Notes under the pieces: model-generated | The model's database searches: none | Told to the model about the DNA's origin: nothing | Seen by the model: the letters and a program-made list of their open reading frames with translations, nothing else | IMG/VR virus record: IMGVR_UViG_3300006802_000687 | Location: 1 to 21,651 of that record | From: a virus | Strand: one strand, 5' to 3' | DNA: 21,651 bases | In this document: piece after piece, positions 1-21,552 of the stretch | Layout of the letters: each line of letters starts with the position of its first letter | Position numbering within the stretch: position 1 is the stretch's first letter | Program-made: the position numbers and the translations under genes

Positions 1-297
1 CAAGAAAGTTTGAACCGCGATTACCGCGAACTACAAACAAAGAAAGCGTCCATACTCAGGGAGATGAAAGGTACTAGAGAGCAAAGAATTAAAAGGTTGG
101 AAGATAGCAAACAGAGCTTTACATCGTGGGTGGCTATGCTAATGCAAGACCCCGACACACTAAAGCGTTATGGTATTGAAATGGAGAAGATGAGACTCGC
201 TATGATGAAAGAAAAGGAACGCTTGGGCGCGTTCCATAAATATGAGGACGGGCAAATTGATCAACCATTTTTAACTCCAGATACGGTTGAAGATTAA
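1..297 (+). CDS. Partial small coiled protein, C-terminal part, function unknown
   Basis: The reading frame is open from base 1 to the TAA at 295-297, so the gene probably begins upstream; a TTG at 10 is the first start-like codon but has no clear ribosome site in view. The visible 98 residues are highly charged and probably helical, with many Lys, Arg, Glu and Met and a motif SFTSWVAMLMQDP near the middle. The tail is acidic and ends DQPFLTPDTVED. There is no signal peptide or membrane segment. I do not recognise the family. A small phage helper protein is possible given the structural genes downstream, but the sugar cassette separates it from them. It ends one base before the ATG of the next gene, which suggests one transcript. 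Confidence 0.6.
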   Translation, partial: QESLNRDYRELQTKKASILREMKGTREQRIKRLEDSKQSFTSWVAMLMQDPDTLKRYGIEMEKMRLAMMKEKERLGAFHKYEDGQIDQPFLTPDTVED

Positions 298-298
298 C

Positions 299-1519
299 AT
301 GTTTGCATTTAAGTATGATAATTTTTCTATAATTGCTAATAATCAAGCTTTGGTAGATTTTTCTTCCGTATTAGAAAATTGTAAAAATACGAATGTTATT
401 CACATCAATAGGGCCATACATATAAATAAATTCAAAACATGTAACAATTTTTTGGCTCTTCACAGTTGGCAAAAAAGCAAATTTATAGGTTATGACTGTA
501 ATAAATCTAGAAGCAATTTGTTCGATGGGATATTTTTTATTTTAAAACCGGGTCAAACCACTCAAGATAGACCATATGAGGATTTTCAAAAATATATAGA
601 TGAATTTCCACATAAAAATAAAACAATAATACATATTGGGGCATCAGTTTCTAAAAATTTACTTCGTGGTGGTCAACCATCAGCGGGCTTTAATGTTGCT
701 TATTATCTTCACGACCTTTATAAAAACGCTCAAATTAATCTTATTGGTTTTTCTGGGCATCATAAATTACCAAATGGAAAAATGGCATTAGATGGACACC
801 CAGTTTCTAAAGAACAATTATGGTATAAATCACAATCTAAAATAGCTTTATATTTAAATAATCCACCATGTAGTGAACTATTTGATTATCCTTGCGCAAT
901 GTGTAATGCTCAAAATTTTAATGATTCCAAATCAATGTGTACTATTTCACAATCCCCAATCGGGCAATATAAAATGAAAAAATGGTCTAAAATAGAAGAT
1001 GATAAGTATAGCTGGTTGTATAAAAATAATTATCCAATTGGTCAACCAATGAGGGTTGTAAAAAAATTTAATTTAGACAAAAATCTTTCATGTATTGATC
1101 TTGGTTGTGGAAGAGCTTCACTAAGTACACACTTTACAAACTATACTGGAGTAGATGTTTCTGAATATATAATAGAGTTCAACAAACTTAACCGTAGTGG
1201 TAAATATATACATGCATCTCTTGACGATTTAAGCCCCATAGATGATTTTTATGATGTAGCTATTTGTTCAGATGTGATGGAGCATCTTCCGCCAGATCAA
1301 ATAAAAAATGTTCTTAAGTCAATTTCTAGCTTATCAGTGAAGGATTTCTATTTTGTAATTTCGACTAGAAAATCCTTTATACTCGACAAAGAAAAGAAAA
1401 ATTTACACCTATCTGTGTTTAGTGCTTCTGTATGGAGAAATATGTTTTTAGAATTTTTTAAAATTACTAACGAAGATATATCGCCCACGCAATATACATT
1501 AAAATGTCAAACAAAGTAA
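299..1519 (+). CDS. Fusion of a sialyltransferase-like (GT29-type) domain and a SAM methyltransferase
   Basis: I start it at the ATG at 299, two bases after the previous stop, rather than the TTG at 287; this gives 406 residues. Residues 1-175 resemble a GT29-type sialyltransferase: FSIIANNQAL near the start looks like the nucleotide-sugar (L) motif, GGQPSAGFNVAYYL at 124-137 like the S motif, then INLIGFSG, and H167-x4-E172 fits the HxxxxE (VS) motif. Residues about 260-350 form a class I methyltransferase, with IDLGCGR at 266-272 (SAM loop), VDVSEYI at 285-291 and CSDVMEHLP at 323-331. Between them lie four cysteines (C191, C199, C202, C214) that could hold a metal. The expected role is glycosyl transfer coupled to methylation of the sugar or acceptor. 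The methyltransferase call is firm; the sialyltransferase-like call rests on short motifs, and donor and acceptor are unknown. Confidence 0.7.
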   Translation: MFAFKYDNFSIIANNQALVDFSSVLENCKNTNVIHINRAIHINKFKTCNNFLALHSWQKSKFIGYDCNKSRSNLFDGIFFILKPGQTTQDRPYEDFQKYIDEFPHKNKTIIHIGASVSKNLLRGGQPSAGFNVAYYLHDLYKNAQINLIGFSGHHKLPNGKMALDGHPVSKEQLWYKSQSKIALYLNNPPCSELFDYPCAMCNAQNFNDSKSMCTISQSPIGQYKMKKWSKIEDDKYSWLYKNNYPIGQPMRVVKKFNLDKNLSCIDLGCGRASLSTHFTNYTGVDVSEYIIEFNKLNRSGKYIHASLDDLSPIDDFYDVAICSDVMEHLPPDQIKNVLKSISSLSVKDFYFVISTRKSFILDKEKKNLHLSVFSASVWRNMFLEFFKITNEDISPTQYTLKCQTK

Positions 1520-1523
1520 TGCT

Positions 1524-1871
1524 ATGAACAAACAAGGTAAAATTTGGGGCGAAACATGTGAGATTTTTTCTCGTAATAATGTTTCTGTAAATAGAATTAG
1601 TGTAAATAAGGGGTCGTGTTGTTCCAAACATAAACATGTTAGTAAATACAATATATTTTTTGTAGAATCTGGAAAAATTAAAGTTCAAGAATGGAAAAAG
1701 GACTATAACTTAGTAGACGAAACAATTTTATTACCTGGGGAAAGTTGTTGTGTACCCCCCGACAATTTTCATAAATTCATTGGGTTAGAAGATAGCATAG
1801 TTTATGAAATATATTTTGTCAAACTGCTAGACAACGATATTATTAGAGAGGATGTTGGAAGTCAATCATGA
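1524..1871 (+). CDS. Small cupin-fold protein, sugar-isomerase or epimerase-like
   Basis: A 115-residue single-domain cupin. Motif 1 is visible as G30, H36-x-H38, E48 and G50; motif 2 is PGESCCVPPDNFHKF at 71-85, with H83 as the last metal ligand. The opening IWGETCEI resembles the start of the cupin domain of type II mannose-6-phosphate isomerases, so a sugar-binding or isomerising role is reasonable beside a GDP-mannose dehydratase and glycosyltransferases. It is far too short to be a bifunctional isomerase/guanylyltransferase. It starts four bases after the previous stop. Three cysteine pairs or clusters are unusual for this fold and may be incidental. Metal and substrate cannot be read from the sequence. 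Confidence 0.7.
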   Translation: MNKQGKIWGETCEIFSRNNVSVNRISVNKGSCCSKHKHVSKYNIFFVESGKIKVQEWKKDYNLVDETILLPGESCCVPPDNFHKFIGLEDSIVYEIYFVKLLDNDIIREDVGSQS

Positions 1872-1880
1872 GGAGCGAAA

Positions 1881-2462
1881 ATGGATAGATTAGATATACT
1901 TAATACGATAATTAAACGTCACAACTTTCAATCGTATCTAGAAATTGGAGTTTTTGGAGGCTACACTTTTAACAATATTTTGTGCCAACACAAGGTAGGA
2001 GTCGATCCAGATAAAAATTCTGCGGCAAATATATTTTTAACTTCCGACGAATTTTTTGAACAAAATCAAGAAACTTTCGATTTAATTTTCATAGATGGGC
2101 TTCATCATGCAGATCAAGTCAAAAAAGATATAGAAAATTCATTGAAAGTTTTAAATAACGGGGGCTTTATAGTTTGTCATGATATGAATCCGCACTCAGA
2201 AATTATACAAAGAGTCCCAAGACAAAGCTCTGAATGGACCGGCGATTGCTGGAAGGCATGGGTTCAATTGAGAGCATCTCGCGATGATTTGAGTATGCAA
2301 GTTATTGACAGAGATTACGGATGCGGTGTCATATTTCGCGGACAACAAGAGTTAATAAATATTGACTGCGAATTGTCCTACGAAAATTTAGACAAAAATA
2401 GAAAGTATTGGTTAAATTTGATTACTATGCAGCAATTTCTTGATATTTTTCTAAGGAACTAA
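1881..2462 (+). CDS. Class I SAM-dependent methyltransferase (Methyltransf_24-like)
   Basis: A 193-residue protein with a good ribosome site (AGGAG at 1871-1875) and an ATG nine bases after the cupin stop. The SAM-binding loop LEIGVFGG is at residues 20-27, an acidic residue that can hold the ribose (D42) sits in VGVDPDK, IDGLHHADQV is at 71-80 and VCHDMNPHS at 98-106. This LEIG...IDG.H...HDD/HDM pattern is typical of small methyltransferases of sugar and polysaccharide clusters that act on hydroxyl groups. It shares the same layout with the protein at 3278-3883, so the two are probably distant paralogs. The acceptor is unknown; a sugar made by the neighbouring enzymes is the simplest guess. 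Confidence 0.8.
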   Translation: MDRLDILNTIIKRHNFQSYLEIGVFGGYTFNNILCQHKVGVDPDKNSAANIFLTSDEFFEQNQETFDLIFIDGLHHADQVKKDIENSLKVLNNGGFIVCHDMNPHSEIIQRVPRQSSEWTGDCWKAWVQLRASRDDLSMQVIDRDYGCGVIFRGQQELINIDCELSYENLDKNRKYWLNLITMQQFLDIFLRN

Positions 2463-2466
2463 ATTC

Positions 2467-3198
2467 ATGAAACCATTATTGATTTGCATCGCCCATCATA
2501 TAACAAATAATGAACGCAATCAATATCTTGAGACTGTTATTAATAATATTCTAGATACATATCCAAAATCAACAGATATTATTATTGATGTAAATAAGCA
2601 GGGTTTTTCATTAAATAAAACTTATTCAAATATTAGAATAGTTCCTCATCCAAATCTAGCTCACCCATTTGACCTTACTTGGTGTCATAGGCAGCATTTC
2701 CTTAATCACATTAATGACTATGAATGGGTTTCTTATATCGAAGATGATATCTTAATTCCTTATTCTAATTTTTGTTTCTATCAATCACAATTTACTAAAT
2801 TATGGCCGAACTATGTTCCCGGTTTTGTTCGTATCGAGCGATACAATAATCAAGAATATATAGTGGATGTTACGCAAAAAAATGCCCATCGTCACATACA
2901 TTGTAATAATGAAGTTTATGTTTCATTTAGTCAACCCTATCATGCAACATGGTCACTTCCGACTAATGTTTTAGCTACCTGTGACACTCAGCAATTTTTG
3001 ACTATGCATCCCAACATATCGATGCGCAGAGAATGGGGCGCTTCTTACGTAATTTGGACAATGAATAAGCAATCTTTGATAAATGTGATCAACGATAAAA
3101 TCAATCCACTATGCCATATTTATCATTTAGCAAATAATTATGCTTCTTGTTCCGGCACTCCGTATGGCAAGATAGAAATCGATAGTGTCATTAAGTAA
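2467..3198 (+). CDS. Probable GT-A-like glycosyltransferase
   Basis: A 243-residue protein, ATG preceded by AAGGA at 2453-2457 and four bases after the previous stop. It opens with a short beta strand, PLLICIAHHI, followed by a helix (YLETVINNILDTYP) and a second strand, as in GT-A folds. YIEDDILIP at residues 90-98 fits the DxD-like metal and nucleotide-sugar site. Further on, a conserved-looking aromatic and histidine-rich section (HRHIHCNNEVYVSFSQPYHATW) may form the acceptor site. There is no membrane anchor. I cannot assign a CAZy family, donor or acceptor. It closes the first part of the sugar cassette; a 79-base gap with a possible promoter follows. Confidence 0.55.
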   Translation: MKPLLICIAHHITNNERNQYLETVINNILDTYPKSTDIIIDVNKQGFSLNKTYSNIRIVPHPNLAHPFDLTWCHRQHFLNHINDYEWVSYIEDDILIPYSNFCFYQSQFTKLWPNYVPGFVRIERYNNQEYIVDVTQKNAHRHIHCNNEVYVSFSQPYHATWSLPTNVLATCDTQQFLTMHPNISMRREWGASYVIWTMNKQSLINVINDKINPLCHIYHLANNYASCSGTPYGKIEIDSVIK

Positions 3199-3216
3199 CT
3201 GAGGTAAAAAGGCACA

Positions 3217-3245
3217 TTTACTTAATATAGATTCTACGTTATAAC
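3217..3245 (+). promoter_or_regulatory. Possible sigma70-type promoter
   Basis: In the 79-base gap between the glycosyltransferase and the next methyltransferase, TTTACT (3217-3222) is followed after 17 bases by TATAAC (3240-3245), matching the -35/-10 consensus in four and five of six positions. A strong Shine-Dalgarno site, AAGGAGG (3265-3271), follows seven bases before the ATG at 3278. In such AT-rich DNA these matches can occur by chance, so this rests mainly on the unusual gap and the strong ribosome site. Confidence 0.35.
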
Positions 3246-3277
3246 TAATTTCAGTAATCATTAAAAGGAGGTTATAA

Positions 3278-3883
3278 ATGAACAAATTATCCGAAATAGT
3301 AACATTTGCTAATAGTGACGATACAAAGCTTAACCAAAAAGCTTTGACTCTTGAGGGAATGTCTAGTAAAAAGGTCAGAAATCTACTTAATAAGTGTGTT
3401 TCATATCCAAATTCTAAATATCTAGAAATTGGTGTATGGAATGGATCTACTTTATATTCGGCATTGTGTGGAAATAATCCAGAATACGTCGTTGCTATTG
3501 ACAATTTTTCTGAATTTGGTGGTCAAAAAGAAAAATTTTTAAACAATATGTCAGATATAAATGTTCCATTTAAATTTATAGATCAAGATTGTTTTAGTGT
3601 TGATAAGTCGCAATTTAAAAATAAGTTCAATGTATATTTTTATGATGGCAGACATCAAGCTATAGATCAAGAAATGGCTTTGACATATTATTATGATTCT
3701 ATGGAAGACACGTTTCTTTATATATGCGATGATTATAACTGGCACCACGTACAGATCGGTACAAAGAATGGTGTTGAAAAATGCAATCTGAAGATTTTAG
3801 AAGAGAAAACGCTTTTGTGCGGCAAAAATGGAGATACTGATAGTTGGTGGAATGGAATATGGATAGCTTTATTACAGAAATAG
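3278..3883 (+). CDS. Class I SAM-dependent methyltransferase
   Basis: A 201-residue protein with the strongest ribosome site of the upstream region (AAGGAGG at 3265-3271). The SAM loop is LEIGVWNGST at residues 49-58, AIDNF at 73-77 holds the acidic ribose-binding residue, FYDGRHQAID is at 121-130 and CDDYNW at 150-155. The arrangement matches the methyltransferase at 1881-2462 (LEIGV.GG.T, then a DG.H motif, then a D-rich strand end), so the pair probably shares an origin and may methylate different positions of one glycan. There is no membrane segment. The acceptor is unknown. It ends eight bases before the GDP-mannose dehydratase gene and is likely cotranscribed with it. Confidence 0.75.
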   Translation: MNKLSEIVTFANSDDTKLNQKALTLEGMSSKKVRNLLNKCVSYPNSKYLEIGVWNGSTLYSALCGNNPEYVVAIDNFSEFGGQKEKFLNNMSDINVPFKFIDQDCFSVDKSQFKNKFNVYFYDGRHQAIDQEMALTYYYDSMEDTFLYICDDYNWHHVQIGTKNGVEKCNLKILEEKTLLCGKNGDTDSWWNGIWIALLQK

Positions 3884-3891
3884 GAAACAAG

Positions 3892-4977
3892 ATGAAAACC
3901 GCAATAATATTCGGAATAACAGGACAAGATGGTAGTCACTTAGCAGATCTCTTGCTAGATAAAGGTTACGAAGTAACGGGCGTGAGAAGACGTTCAAGCA
4001 CAGATAATACATCCAAAATAGAACATATATTAAATGAACCCAGATTCAAGTTGGTTGAAGGCGATATCACAGATCCGTATAGCATATCAAATATACTTAA
4101 AGATAACGTACAGGTAGATGAAATCTATAACTTAGCTGCTCAATCGCACGTAGGAACCTCTTTTAAGCAACCAGCTTTAACTTGGGATGTGACCGGTAAG
4201 GGCTGTATTAATATATTGCAAACAATTGTAGATTTAGGAATGTTTGGTACTAGGTTCTACCAAGCATCGTCTAGCGAAATGTTTGGAAGCTCTTTTACAG
4301 TTGGAGAACATGGAGAAAAGTATCAAGACGAAAATACTAAATTTCTACCGCAATCACCCTATGCTATAGCCAAGTGCGCCGCACATTATGCTGTTAGACT
4401 ATTCAGAGAAGCTTACGACCTTCATGCTAGTTGTGGAATATTATTTAATCACGAAGGCCCAAGGCGCGGTGATAATTTTGTTACAAAGAAGATCACAAAC
4501 TGGATAGTTAACTTTAAATTATGGCTAGATAATAATGCCCTTAATGTAGATGATTTGATATCAGATGGAGATCTCATATATTCAAAGTCTCTCCTTCAAA
4601 ATATACCTAAATTAAGATTGGGAAATTTGGATGCTTATAGGGATTGGGGGTATGCTGGAGATTATGTAGAAGCCATGTGGATTATGCTACAGCAAGAAAC
4701 ACCAGATGATTATGTAATATGTACTGGAAATACGTATAGTATTAGAGACTTTTTAGATAAAGCATTTCATTATATTAATTGTCCTAGCTGGGATAATTAT
4801 GTTGTTGTAGACCCAGAATTTTACAGACCGGCAGAGGTGGATTATTTACGTGGCAGTAACTCCAAAGCATTGAAGAAGCTTGGATGGAAACCAAAATATG
4901 ATTTAGATATGTTAGTTTCTTTAATGATAGATTGTGGTTTAAATGATAAACTTTCGAATCATGCTAGATATATCTAA
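3892..4977 (+). CDS. gmd: GDP-mannose 4,6-dehydratase
   Basis: A 361-residue extended short-chain dehydrogenase when started at the ATG at 3892 after AGGAAA; the frame stays open for 16 more codons upstream, but those overlap the previous gene and precede the natural start MKTAIIFGITG. The enzyme removes water from GDP-D-mannose to give GDP-4-keto-6-deoxy-D-mannose, the branch point to GDP-fucose, rhamnose, perosamine and related sugars. Seen: the Rossmann motif G8-x2-G11-x2-G14 (GITGQDGS), RRRSSTDNT at 32-40 (NADP-binding Arg segment), NLAAQSHV at 80-87, SSSEMFG at 126-132, and the catalytic pair Y157-x3-K161 in SPYAIAK. FNHEGPRRG and FVTKKI are typical of this family. Length fits known GMDs. 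No partner epimerase/reductase lies in the window. Confidence 0.9.
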   Translation: MKTAIIFGITGQDGSHLADLLLDKGYEVTGVRRRSSTDNTSKIEHILNEPRFKLVEGDITDPYSISNILKDNVQVDEIYNLAAQSHVGTSFKQPALTWDVTGKGCINILQTIVDLGMFGTRFYQASSSEMFGSSFTVGEHGEKYQDENTKFLPQSPYAIAKCAAHYAVRLFREAYDLHASCGILFNHEGPRRGDNFVTKKITNWIVNFKLWLDNNALNVDDLISDGDLIYSKSLLQNIPKLRLGNLDAYRDWGYAGDYVEAMWIMLQQETPDDYVICTGNTYSIRDFLDKAFHYINCPSWDNYVVVDPEFYRPAEVDYLRGSNSKALKKLGWKPKYDLDMLVSLMIDCGLNDKLSNHARYI

Positions 4978-17783: not shown

Positions 17784-20090
17784 ATGGGAGAGCCAAGGGA
17801 CGCTTGCTTTGAACAAAAATCTCCATATGATATTTGGACTACTACTACAACAACCAGTAGTACAACAACTTCGTCCCCAGATTTTTTTATTATTCCAAAC
17901 AGTGGCGCTCCATGTCCAACTATATCATTTAATATAGATCAAAATGAATGGTCGCCACCAGAACTAAACAATAACGAAAAGTATTCTTTTCGCTGTGATT
18001 CTGCTTTATATTATCCTAATCCATGTATTTTGGAGTCAGACAAATATATTAAAGTTGCAGATATTAATATTGACATAAATCGTTGTACTAGATTTAGATT
18101 AACATTATCTGGAGATTATTCAAATCTATTTTATATTTTTGGAACCTCTTTATATATTGATTCTAAGGTTTTAGACTTTGATCAATCGACTAAAAACTAT
18201 GGTGTCGTATTAAACTTAGTTGACATACAGACCAACAACATTTTAGACAGCGTTGCTCACACTGTAACCGCAACTCCTTGTGAATGCATAAAACCATGCT
18301 GTGAAGAAATGAGAATACAGTTTACAAGTTATGATGAAGCCCACAATATAACGGTTTATGACAATCAAAATTCCATCATGTACACCGCAGATATTCCTCC
18401 TAATGAATCTATAGATACAACTTTACAAAATATAAATCATGACTTCAAAGTTTGTGTCGATTATGATTATTGTTATGACTTTGTTTGTAATCCAACTACG
18501 ACAACTACTATAGACCCAAATGCCCCAACAACAACTACTACGACAACTACTATAGATCCGAATACGCCCACCACCACAACAACTACTACTATTACCCCAA
18601 TCGTAGACAATTATGCTAACTATGATAACGAAGCCAATTGGAACGGAACAAGTAACGGCAATGTTACAACTGTTGGAAGTAATGGTGGGCCTAGTGCTTA
18701 CGGAACTTTTGACCAGAGCGGGAACGTCAGCGAGTGGAACGACGAGACGGGTGCTGCCGGCTCCAATAAGGGAATCCGGGGCGGCAACTGGAACAACGAC
18801 GACGCGTTCGGCTTGTCGTCCTCGGGCAGGAGTACGTCCGCCCCGTCGAACGAGTACGGCAGCTACGGTTTTCGTCTCGCAAGTCGCCTTAATCCTTTAA
18901 GCCTTTCTAACTTTGTTACTGTAGGAGACGCTAATAACAGTAATGATTCTACTGGCTTTGGAGGCGTCAGCTATACATATCAGATCGGTAAGTATCCTGT
19001 TACAAATTGCGAATATGTTGAATTCTTAAATGCGGTAGCAAGCACGGACGTTTATGGTTTATACAACGACTTCATGGATAGCGAAATTAGAGGCGGTATA
19101 ACTAGAAGTGGAAATGTTGGAAGTTATACTTATAGCGTTAAACCAAACATGGGCAACAAGCCCGTAGTTTATGTAAGTTGGTTTGATTGCGCACGATATT
19201 GTAACTGGCTACACAACGGTAAAGGTAGCGGAGATACCGAAACCGGAGCATATACCCTAAACGGAGCAATTAACGGAGATGCTGTAGCGATTAACGCTGG
19301 CGCTAACTACCACATTCCCACAGAAAACGAATGGTATAAAGCAGCATATTACAAGGGCGGCGGTACTGATGCTGGGTATTGGACTTATGCTACTCAAAGC
19401 GATACTGATCCAACTCCCGTGCAAGCCAACAGCATTGGAGATGGTCAGATAAACGGAATCAGCGTACCTGGAAGTGATCCTATATTGTTAGATCCAAACA
19501 CATGCGTAGACCCAACCCTGACCACGACCACAACAACAACCACCACGACCACAACAACCACAACAACCACCACAACCACAGTAGCGCCACCAGAAATATG
19601 TGATTGTTCACAATTTACCACTATTTGGAATGATGACAGCAATTTGTCGGTACCTATAAATTCAATATATCAAAAAGAATTCAAAAATTGTAATAATGGT
19701 ATTAAAGATGTGCTAAAAATCTATACCACTCAATATCTTATAGAATATGATTCTTATTACCGCCATGATGAAAATTGCTCGTATCTTTATGAGGTAAGGG
19801 ATGAATCTGGTTATAACATTGAGGTTACTTGGAATTTCTTCTTCACCCCATATGGGATATATATTGATTTTAATTACTATAATGTATCAAATAACGACTT
19901 TTTAAGATATGACTTTGAGCCAAGCGATGTAACAATATTGCACAATAACAACAACTGCCCAACTGGAGCATTAATAGAAATACCACAAGTTATTAAAGAT
20001 ATAAACTTTCCACTAACTACTTATCCGTGTGTACCGTCCGGTGAGAATAATCAGATGATAATTGGAATACAGTGCAATACGGAGAATTAA
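17784..20090 (+). CDS. Adhesin 1: Thr-rich linkers and a circularly permuted FGE/C-lectin domain with a DGR-like variable region
   Basis: A 768-residue modular surface protein, ATG ten bases after the fibre stop with AAGGA near it. Order: Thr/Ser linker (19-32); beta domain possibly cadherin-like (about 40-165); small Cys-rich domain starting CCEEMRIQF (about 172-235); Thr-rich linker made of two 14-residue repeats (237-272); FGE-sulfatase/C-lectin-like domain (275-570); 20 Thr in a row (580-599); a C-terminal Cys-containing domain with no recognised family. The FGE domain is permuted: GNVSEW, RGGNW and GFRLAS (about 314-366) precede KYPVTNCEYVEFLN (about 403), VSWFDCARYCNWL (about 464) and HIPTENEWYKAAYY (510). 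The cysteines of catalytic FGE are absent after RGG, so it should bind rather than catalyse. Probably the receptor-binding tip. Confidence 0.82.
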   Translation: MGEPRDACFEQKSPYDIWTTTTTTSSTTTSSPDFFIIPNSGAPCPTISFNIDQNEWSPPELNNNEKYSFRCDSALYYPNPCILESDKYIKVADINIDINRCTRFRLTLSGDYSNLFYIFGTSLYIDSKVLDFDQSTKNYGVVLNLVDIQTNNILDSVAHTVTATPCECIKPCCEEMRIQFTSYDEAHNITVYDNQNSIMYTADIPPNESIDTTLQNINHDFKVCVDYDYCYDFVCNPTTTTTIDPNAPTTTTTTTTIDPNTPTTTTTTTITPIVDNYANYDNEANWNGTSNGNVTTVGSNGGPSAYGTFDQSGNVSEWNDETGAAGSNKGIRGGNWNNDDAFGLSSSGRSTSAPSNEYGSYGFRLASRLNPLSLSNFVTVGDANNSNDSTGFGGVSYTYQIGKYPVTNCEYVEFLNAVASTDVYGLYNDFMDSEIRGGITRSGNVGSYTYSVKPNMGNKPVVYVSWFDCARYCNWLHNGKGSGDTETGAYTLNGAINGDAVAINAGANYHIPTENEWYKAAYYKGGGTDAGYWTYATQSDTDPTPVQANSIGDGQINGISVPGSDPILLDPNTCVDPTLTTTTTTTTTTTTTTTTTTTTVAPPEICDCSQFTTIWNDDSNLSVPINSIYQKEFKNCNNGIKDVLKIYTTQYLIEYDSYYRHDENCSYLYEVRDESGYNIEVTWNFFFTPYGIYIDFNYYNVSNNDFLRYDFEPSDVTILHNNNNCPTGALIEIPQVIKDINFPLTTYPCVPSGENNQMIIGIQCNTEN
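18498..18581 (+). repeat. Two 42-bp tandem repeats coding a Thr-rich linker
   Basis: The unit beginning ACGACAACTACTATAGA at 18498 recurs at 18540 and codes TTTIDPN(A/T)PTTTTT twice. The copies differ at a few, mainly third, positions. It forms the linker just before the permuted domain. Confidence 0.8.
18660..18700 (+). repeat. 41-bp identity block A, copy in adhesin 1
   Basis: These 41 bases are identical to 20146-20186 in adhesin 2, although much of the surrounding paralogous sequence differs. The block codes NVTTVGSNGGPSAY and ends ten bases before the GC-rich variable patch. Confidence 0.9.
18711..18890 (+). other. Candidate DGR variable region (VR) in adhesin 1
   Basis: GC is 114 of 180 bases (63%), against 40% in 18601-18660 and 38% in 18901-18960. 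It codes residues 310-369, from DQSGNVSEW through RGGNW to GFRLASR, exactly the part of the FGE/C-lectin fold altered by diversity-generating retroelements. At the surface-loop positions the codons are AAC 335, AAC 337, AAC 338, GAC 339, GAC 340, TTC 342, GGC 343, GGC 348, AAC 356, TAC 358, GGC 359, AGC 360 and TAC 361: the first two bases vary and the third stays C, as expected if AAC codons of a template were mutated at adenines. Framework residues (RGG, W336, GFR) are kept. The template repeat and reverse transcriptase are not in the window, so the mechanism is inferred. Confidence 0.65.
19155..19195 (+). repeat. 41-bp identity block B, copy in adhesin 1
   Basis: Identical to 20641-20681 in adhesin 2. 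It codes NKPVVYVSWFDCAR, the core motif of the displaced N-terminal half of the FGE domain. The bases on either side differ between copies. Confidence 0.9.
19521..19580 (+). repeat. Run of 20 threonine codons
   Basis: Sixty bases made only of ACC, ACA and ACG codons give 20 Thr in a row between the permuted domain and the C-terminal domain of adhesin 1. Mixed third bases show it is not one simple repeat, yet it should still be prone to length change in steps of whole codons. Confidence 0.95.
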
Positions 20091-20091
20091 T

Positions 20092-21552
20092 ATGAGTAAC
20101 TATGCTAATTTTAATTACTGTGCCGATTGGAATGGTCAAGATGGAAATGTTACAACTGTTGGAAGTAATGGTGGGCCTAGTGCTTATGGTACATATGACC
20201 AAAGCGGGAACGTGCGAGAGTGGAACGATCTCACGGGTACTGCCGGACCATTTCGTGGGCTTAGAGGCGGTGATTGGGCTAACAATGCGTTCAGTATGTC
20301 CTCTTCTTTTAGTAGTAACACATCCTACACATTGTTTGAGAGCGTTGTAAGTGGTTTTCGTATTGCAAGCGCACTTAATATTTTTGCTCTTGATAATTTT
20401 GTAATTGTTGAAGATGCTAATAACCTTGCCGATGATACCACTTATGGTTCAGTAGGTTATGAATACCGTATTGGAAAATATCCTGTAACTAACTGCGAAT
20501 ATGTTAAATTCCTTAATTCTGTAGCTAGTAGTGACCCCTATTTGTTATATAATTTATTAATGAATAGTGAAATTCCGGGTGGTATAACTCGCTCCGGTAG
20601 TGATGGAAGCTACACTTATAGCATTAAACCTAATATGGGTAACAAGCCCGTAGTTTATGTAAGTTGGTTTGATTGCGCACGGTATTGCAACTGGCTACAC
20701 AACGGTGGCGGATTAGGCGCAGACACAGAAACTGGAGCATACACTTTAAACGGAAAAATATCGGGAGATGCTGTTGAGCGTAATAGTGGCGCTAAATATC
20801 ATATACCAACAGAGAATGAATGGTATAAAGCAGCATACTACAAAGGTGGCGGAACTAATGCTGGTTATTGGATTTATGCTACTCAAAGTAATAGTGATCC
20901 AACCTGTATTACTGCTAATAATGTTGGCGATGGTCAAATAAATGGGAGCGATGTCCCTGGCAGTGAAGCTATACTACTGGATGAAAATATATGTTTAGAA
21001 TCAACCGTTACCACAACCACAATACCTCCAGATCCGTGCGGCTTTAGGCTTCTAATTACGGGGTGTTTAGAGGTTGATGTTGATTCTATATGCCCAACCA
21101 CCACCACCACCACCACAACTCAAGCGCCGCCAACTACCACCACTACAACAGAAGCGCCACCCACTACAACAACCACCACGACCACCTCAACCACAACCAC
21201 AACGACCACAGAAGCGCCATGTTGTGACGAACTAGTAGTATATTTTACCACTTACATTATTGAAGATAAATTAAACATTCATGATTCTGAAGGGAATATC
21301 TTATATACAACAGGTTTTATATCAACTGGTAGTAATCCACAACAATTTATATACAACAATTTACCTTGTGGATTTTATATTTGTATTGAAGCCCCTTATG
21401 GTGGAACCGCTTGGGAATTCACCACTACTGGATGTGTAACTCTATCTGATAGCGGAACTCAATTACTGGAACCAAGATGCTATTTCCCTCCACTTACTAG
21501 TACTACTACTACTGAAGAACCACCACCCGTTTCAACGAGTCCAGCGCCATGA
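20092..21552 (+). CDS. Adhesin 2: paralog of adhesin 1 beginning with the permuted FGE/C-lectin domain
   Basis: A 486-residue protein from the ATG at 20092, preceded by GGAG at 20081-20084; the frame extends to 20062, but only inside the previous gene. It begins directly with the half that is normally C-terminal: NYANFNYCADWNG (3-15), GNVREWND, RGGDW and GFRIAS (up to about 93), then the half that is normally N-terminal, with KYPVTNCEYVKFLN (about 129), VSWFDCARYCNWL (about 190) and HIPTENEWYKAAYY (237). A Thr-rich linker (336-376) leads to a small domain, CCDELVVYF to TTTGC, related to the Cys-rich domain of adhesin 1, and a final Thr/Pro tail. No catalytic FGE cysteines follow RGG. Like adhesin 1 it is probably a surface-exposed binding protein; the next gene starts within its stop. 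Confidence 0.82.
   Translation: MSNYANFNYCADWNGQDGNVTTVGSNGGPSAYGTYDQSGNVREWNDLTGTAGPFRGLRGGDWANNAFSMSSSFSSNTSYTLFESVVSGFRIASALNIFALDNFVIVEDANNLADDTTYGSVGYEYRIGKYPVTNCEYVKFLNSVASSDPYLLYNLLMNSEIPGGITRSGSDGSYTYSIKPNMGNKPVVYVSWFDCARYCNWLHNGGGLGADTETGAYTLNGKISGDAVERNSGAKYHIPTENEWYKAAYYKGGGTNAGYWIYATQSNSDPTCITANNVGDGQINGSDVPGSEAILLDENICLESTVTTTTIPPDPCGFRLLITGCLEVDVDSICPTTTTTTTTQAPPTTTTTTEAPPTTTTTTTTSTTTTTTTEAPCCDELVVYFTTYIIEDKLNIHDSEGNILYTTGFISTGSNPQQFIYNNLPCGFYICIEAPYGGTAWEFTTTGCVTLSDSGTQLLEPRCYFPPLTSTTTTEEPPPVSTSPAP
20146..20186 (+). repeat. 41-bp identity block A, copy in adhesin 2
   Basis: Identical to 18660-18700. It lies ten bases before the counterpart of the variable patch. Confidence 0.9.
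20197..20370 (+). other. Counterpart of the variable region in adhesin 2, possibly an old or second VR
   Basis: It aligns with 18711-18890 and codes DQSGNVREW, RGGDW and GFRIAS, residues 36-93. The first 50 bases remain GC-rich and close to adhesin 1 (about nine differences), but the loop section after RGGDW has lower GC, mixed third bases (GCT, AAT, AGT, TCT, GTA) and one codon fewer. It lacks the NNC pattern, so it looks like an ordinary or retired copy rather than an active target. Confidence 0.5.
20641..20681 (+). repeat. 41-bp identity block B, copy in adhesin 2
   Basis: Identical to 19155-19195 and codes the same NKPVVYVSWFDCAR core. Confidence 0.9.
21097..21219 (+). repeat. Thr-rich linker with repeated EAPP units in adhesin 2
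   Basis: Forty-one codons give runs of Thr broken by QAPP, EAPP and EAP, with one Ser. The DNA is mostly ACN codons, and GAAGCGCCA recurs. It joins the permuted domain to the small Cys-rich domain. Confidence 0.9.

Follow-up and report, generated by a model that had tools for sequence, protein, structure and literature searches.

Can a phage gene carry the variable region (VR) of a diversity-generating retroelement (DGR) when the template repeat (TR) and the reverse transcriptase (RT) that would write it are encoded elsewhere? This question is raised by a GC-rich patch at positions 18711-18890 of the window, i.e. the whole stretch of 21,651 bases analysed here. For this patch an earlier note, made from the sequence alone, had proposed a live or recently active DGR-type VR in a phage adhesin.

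The window is a viral record with a head module (terminase, portal-like protein, Clp-type protease and major capsid-like protein, the name of the putative portal being taken from position and size), and in this module it is syntenic with four related phages (G008, G001, G014 and G004). Methyltransferases, a cupin protein and a GDP-mannose 4,6-dehydratase are clustered beside the head module (287-4977). A cyanophage is not indicated, psbA being missing from 20 relatives. Two tandem FGE-sulfatase ORFs close the window. The patch lies in frame in the first of them, the target ORF (Table 1), where it runs from FDQSGNVSEW through RGGNW to GFRLAS inside the Pfam FGE-sulfatase domain.

Composition of the patch and the fold that carries it

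The patch has a GC content of 63.3%, compared with 41.7% and 38.3% in the 180-base blocks on its two sides and 36.3% in the contig. This value is the maximum for 180 bases of the contig; 18711-18890 shares it and no stretch is higher. In the core VR, 19 of the 35 codons end in C against a background of 21% (binomial p = 2e-5) and 86% end in G or C against a background of 31% (p = 3e-11), and both shares are far above those in the remainder of the ORF. The high GC content and the loop codons with C as third base, both described in the earlier note, are borne out by these values. As a GC-rich block the patch stands over its full length; what is common with the relatives is the core only. The 5' extension is found chiefly in this phage, most relatives being AT-rich there. 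Several related phages of 32-41% GC have a GC-rich patch at the equivalent place, and in G001 (178 kb) and G004 (120 kb), both of them incomplete, the homologous segment is the top 100-base GC peak of the entire record. Just 5' of the VR, the tandem paralogues share a near-identical stretch (18661-18706 and 20145-20190), which suggests duplication or gene conversion.

Table 1. Features of the target gene and its tandem paralogue (positions in the window)
Feature	Position	Strand	Description	Basis
Target ORF	17784..20090	+	768 aa	ORF listing; Pfam FGE-sulfatase E 4.3e-19 in two stretches
Permuted domain	18606..19469	+	circularly permuted FGE/C-lectin domain	AlphaFold model, structure alignment, sequence profile
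5' extension of VR	18711..18776	+	GC-rich, GNVSEWNDETGAAGS	GC profile
Core VR	18777..18881	+	NNC codons amid adenine-free constant blocks	codon alignment, codon-position test, codon statistics
Constant 3' edge of VR	18867..18881	+	GGTTTTCGTCTCGCA, candidate IMH (initiation-of-mutagenic-homing) site	codon usage; IMH role putative
Tandem paralogue	20092..21552	+	second permuted FGE protein	one FGE-sulfatase domain
Decayed VR counterpart	20263..20367	+	in paralogue; AT-drifted, keeps GCG, TTC and GGTTTTCGT	

The target protein consists of an N-terminal region, a threonine-rich linker, a permuted FGE domain, a second threonine-rich linker and a C-terminal region. Both linkers are ACN-rich (18495-18600 and 19520-19590), and the paralogue has similar ones. 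The two halves of the domain are reversed, i.e. the C-half (NYAN..RGGxW..GFR) precedes the N-half (FVTVGDAxN..NEWYKAAY). Residues 97-282 of its AlphaFold model (pLDDT 85, pTM 0.89) superpose on residues 2-208 of the FGE fold (VIA-align structure alignment), and the structure alignment of the N-half to 5aoh has a Z of 6.4. When the sequence profile is compared with solved FGEs and the DGR protein TvpA, residues 26-93 align with their C-terminal ends and residues 121-231 with N-terminal parts. A Foldseek search with the domain model gave no match at E <= 0.001, perhaps because the domain is permuted. By Pfam, the profile matches to TvpA and FGEs and the structure alignment, the fold that carries the VR is an FGE/C-lectin fold, and its circular permutation is common to the related phages. 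As a result of the permutation the VR lies near the front of the domain and not at the end of the protein; the N-half of the domain and about 400 residues come after it. Thus the domain assigned in the earlier note is retained, with the patch now placed near the front of a permuted domain. The host-binding or adhesin role of the protein is putative.

Codon signature and history of the variable region

In a codon alignment of eight related phages, the mismatches at codon positions 1/2/3 were 0.40/0.43/0.13 in the VR and 0.23/0.21/0.46 downstream of it. In the variable codons 94% of the third bases are C, and A is the most frequent base at positions 1 and 2. The NNC codons are separated by constant blocks (CGGGGCGGC, TTGTCGTCC, CCGTCG and GGTTTTCGT), and the adenine-free blocks CGG GGC GGC, TTG TCG TCC, CCG TCG and GGT TTT CGT are nearly fixed, synonymous sites included. 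Given the codon-position pattern, purifying or diversifying selection at the protein level is inadequate, and adenine mutagenesis of an AAC-rich template would give it; such mutagenesis is the established DGR mechanism (PMC8144416). Adenine-linked variation in the target gene was shown here by comparison among the phages, not against a TR. The sequence data strongly support the reading of the core as a DGR-type VR. The central claim of the earlier note is upheld by the inverted codon-position pattern, by the share of C at the third base and by the inferred template described below, which finds TRs near DGR-like RTs.

Strong positive selection on the ligand loops together with GC-biased conversion might also lead to NNC-rich codons, and the variable codons do lie in loops of a binding domain. 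However, selection would not fix C as the third base of codons whose first two bases vary, and TTG TCG TCC and CCG TCG are frozen synonymously though other third positions of these phages differ by 0.42-0.49. An origin of the patch other than by a DGR is hardly credible to us.

The motif GGT TTT CG(N) at the 3' edge is retained in 18 of the 39 distinct copies, and CGT makes up 9% of the Arg codons elsewhere in the domain. In VR-bearing copies GGTTTTCGT is preserved beyond codon usage, which makes it a candidate IMH. In the clean copies the 3' edge is always at GGTTTTCGT and the 5' edge is variable.

Among five phages with clean VRs the third-position difference is 0.08 within the VR and 0.42-0.49 in the flanks. 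This indicates that the template is younger than these lineages and common to them. The clean state is dispersed over the tree of the N-halves, with six changes, at least three of which are forced by well-supported branches. In this tree the paralogue is the sister of the first copy, so that the one clean and the one decayed VR copy of this phage group together with moderate support (92/78, below the starred level). That these VRs have nearly one backbone despite strongly diverged flanks is best read as the work of an outside template in trans, and repeated refreshment from such a template would fit these sequences best.

The main rival is that a complete DGR diversified another gene and that the phages took ready segments of it by homologous recombination. 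FGE proteins of the same layout do exist in GC-rich phages and in bacteria that bear RT and TR. Recombination near the VR is also suggested by proteins of G004 (116-119 kb) and G001 (139-142 kb) that are 93-100% identical in phages otherwise about 65% alike; this stretch, near the VR gene of G004, is by its sequence apparently a recent local recombination. Yet the 3' edge fixed at GGTTTTCGT in all clean copies and the variable 5' edge are as retrohoming predicts, and the exact backbone occurs in no other viral gene except for a partial match (L019/L081). We consider this capture of ready segments unlikely.

The claim of the earlier note that the VR is live is not supported. Phages of the same species from different metagenomes have identical VRs, as found within each of three near-identical groups (L002/L003/L068, L005/L006/L007 and L016/L017/L027). 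Thus current activity is not supported in the species compared; the cleanest VRs, with one genome per species only, lie outside this within-species comparison. Between the otherwise identical phages L050 and L051, four differences fall within 14 bases (302-315 of the matched segment).

Search for the template and the reverse transcriptase

The near-copy of the patch and the DGR-type RT, which the earlier note had proposed to look for, were found neither in the phage's own record nor in those of its relatives (73 records for the RT, 30 for the TR). RVT_1 was detected neither in the own record nor in 50 relatives nor in 23 more. A DGR RT profile, made from the RTs of L210 and L211, gave nothing in 21 records of the permuted family; as a control it was run on 11 GC-rich phage records whose VRs are similar, and 7 of these were positive. 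With the template query each clean record gave a single VR-like copy, and neither the window nor the records of 30 relatives yielded a TR; a DGRscan-like search forgiving template adenines did no better than a codon-shuffled VR null. Since the own record is a fragment of 21,651 bases, its negatives cover this part of the genome. Exact-pattern scans of 2.9 million viral contigs (IMG/VR) found no TR; apart from chance matches, all that they yielded was VRs of this family and an additional FGE gene (L019/L081). L077 and L298/L299 were rejected as such chance matches.

The first and last genes of G008 (230,097 bases) have their counterparts side by side in G036 (at 184 and 185-190 kb), and by this G008 is practically complete. 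It holds no RT and no TR. Neither was found in same-family records of 120-229 kb or within 10 kb of dozens of targets, so that RT and TR are absent from the readable related genomes. The VR of G008 is less clean than others, and the cleanest VRs are in incomplete records (178, 154 and 120 kb). The absence of TR and RT, part of what the earlier note gave as refuting its reading, thus holds for the relatives as far as they are assembled; we take it to point to machinery outside the phage and not to speak for the absence of a VR. With a practically complete genome among those lacking RT and TR, the mutating machinery is probably elsewhere, perhaps in the host bacterium.

Alternatively, the phages could have a DGR of their own acting in cis, on a part of the genome outside this 21.6-kb contig and the contigs of the relatives. 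The window is a fragment, G001 is about 52 kb short relative to G008, and in most known phage DGRs the action is in cis. However, neither G008 nor the family records of 120-229 kb contain RT or TR, and the 10-kb flanks of dozens of targets are empty, as against an RT within 20 kb by construction in published surveys (PMC8144416). A DGR of the phages' own is in our view distinctly improbable.

A template was inferred from the related phages alone by writing AAC at the variable codons (CGGGGCGGCAACTGGAACAACAACGCGAACAACTTGTCGTCCTCCAACAGGAACACGAACAACCCGTCGAACGAGAACAACAACAACGGTTTTCGTCTCGCA) and was run as a DNA query; the search covered four phyla and one class of GTDB. It matched 15 of 388 genomes in the phylum of a Verrucomicrobiales genome and 3 of 386 genomes in the phylum of a genome titled Cyanobacteria, and the class-level search gave further matches. 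In two further phyla, for which there was no positive control, no match was obtained at E <= 1e-14. The phage and plasmid collections contained no match to the inferred template, and the phage collection none to the target region. The bacterial matches have the look of non-coding AAC-rich repeats, and at 20 of 23 loci an RT-like ORF lies at most 1.5 kb away (profile built from two DGR RTs). The backbone of this phage family is absent from all retrieved bacterial repeats. AAC-rich FGE templates are mutually alike; the query thus confirms what kind of sequence is involved and does not single out a donor. The pattern TTGTCGTCCTCSANCAGGANC in genome contigs was rejected, since the matches listed include chance matches in GC-rich genomes.

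A possible interpretation is that adenine-specific mutagenic retrohoming writes the core VR, and its 5' extension to about 18711, into the permuted FGE/C-lectin domain. The phages of this family, with genomes of about 230 kb, would have neither RT nor TR of their own; most likely both would come in trans from the chromosome of the host or from some other element present in the infected cell, and donor cDNA would be copied into the phage gene, anchored at GGTTTTCGTCTCGCA. That the VR arose by adenine-specific retrohoming with RT and TR supplied in trans from outside the phage genome seems probable to us. The argument for trans action rests on absence, because the specific TR and RT were found nowhere. 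More tentatively, we suggest that a host-encoded (or other in-cell) DGR rewrites the host-binding protein of the infecting phages, and that a family of large phages in this way borrows hypermutation, which a permuted C-lectin domain receives. In this reading three points are putative: that the DGR acts in trans, which element is the donor, and that the protein binds a receptor.

Implications and comparison with known systems

In the open literature we found no precedent for a DGR acting in trans from cell to phage. Surveys like that of Roux et al. start from the RT and require a repeat within 20 kb of it (PMC8144416); by this design, targets without an RT on their own contig cannot be seen. 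Should the VRs be written in trans, machinery absent from a phage could hypermutate its adhesin, DGR targets would have been undercounted, and the infected host would feed diversity to its parasite. The VR backbone can serve directly as a probe for the missing template.

TvpA of Treponema denticola (PDB 2y3c) resembles the present target in its FGE-type C-lectin fold, in a VR ending at GFR and in its NNC codons, and a match to the profile built for the present family lies in C-terminal residues 192-292 of 2y3c (E 1.3e-6). In contrast to TvpA, we deal here with a phage target for which no RT or TR was found alongside, and whose domain is permuted with the VR not at the C-terminus. The DGRs of GC-rich phages (L206-L208, L210, L211 and L213) have a closely similar TR/VR layout in an FGE domain, GSSRGLRGGxW..SS.R....PS.E....GFR. 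Unlike in the present phages, the RT lies beside the TR there, the target is unpermuted, and genome and VR are both GC-rich. The TR next to the DGR RT of these six is AAC-rich, and in several of them the FGE target ends in a PEP-CTERM-like tail, which suggests a phage-borne hypermutated protein anchored at the surface.

Closest with respect to trans action is Thiohalocapsa PB-PSB1, where DGR targets have a VR matching a TR encoded elsewhere in the same bacterial genome (PMC10907252). Common to both would be the matching of a target VR to a distant TR. The difference is that TR and RT are intragenomic in PB-PSB1, whereas the present proposal puts them outside the genome of the phage.
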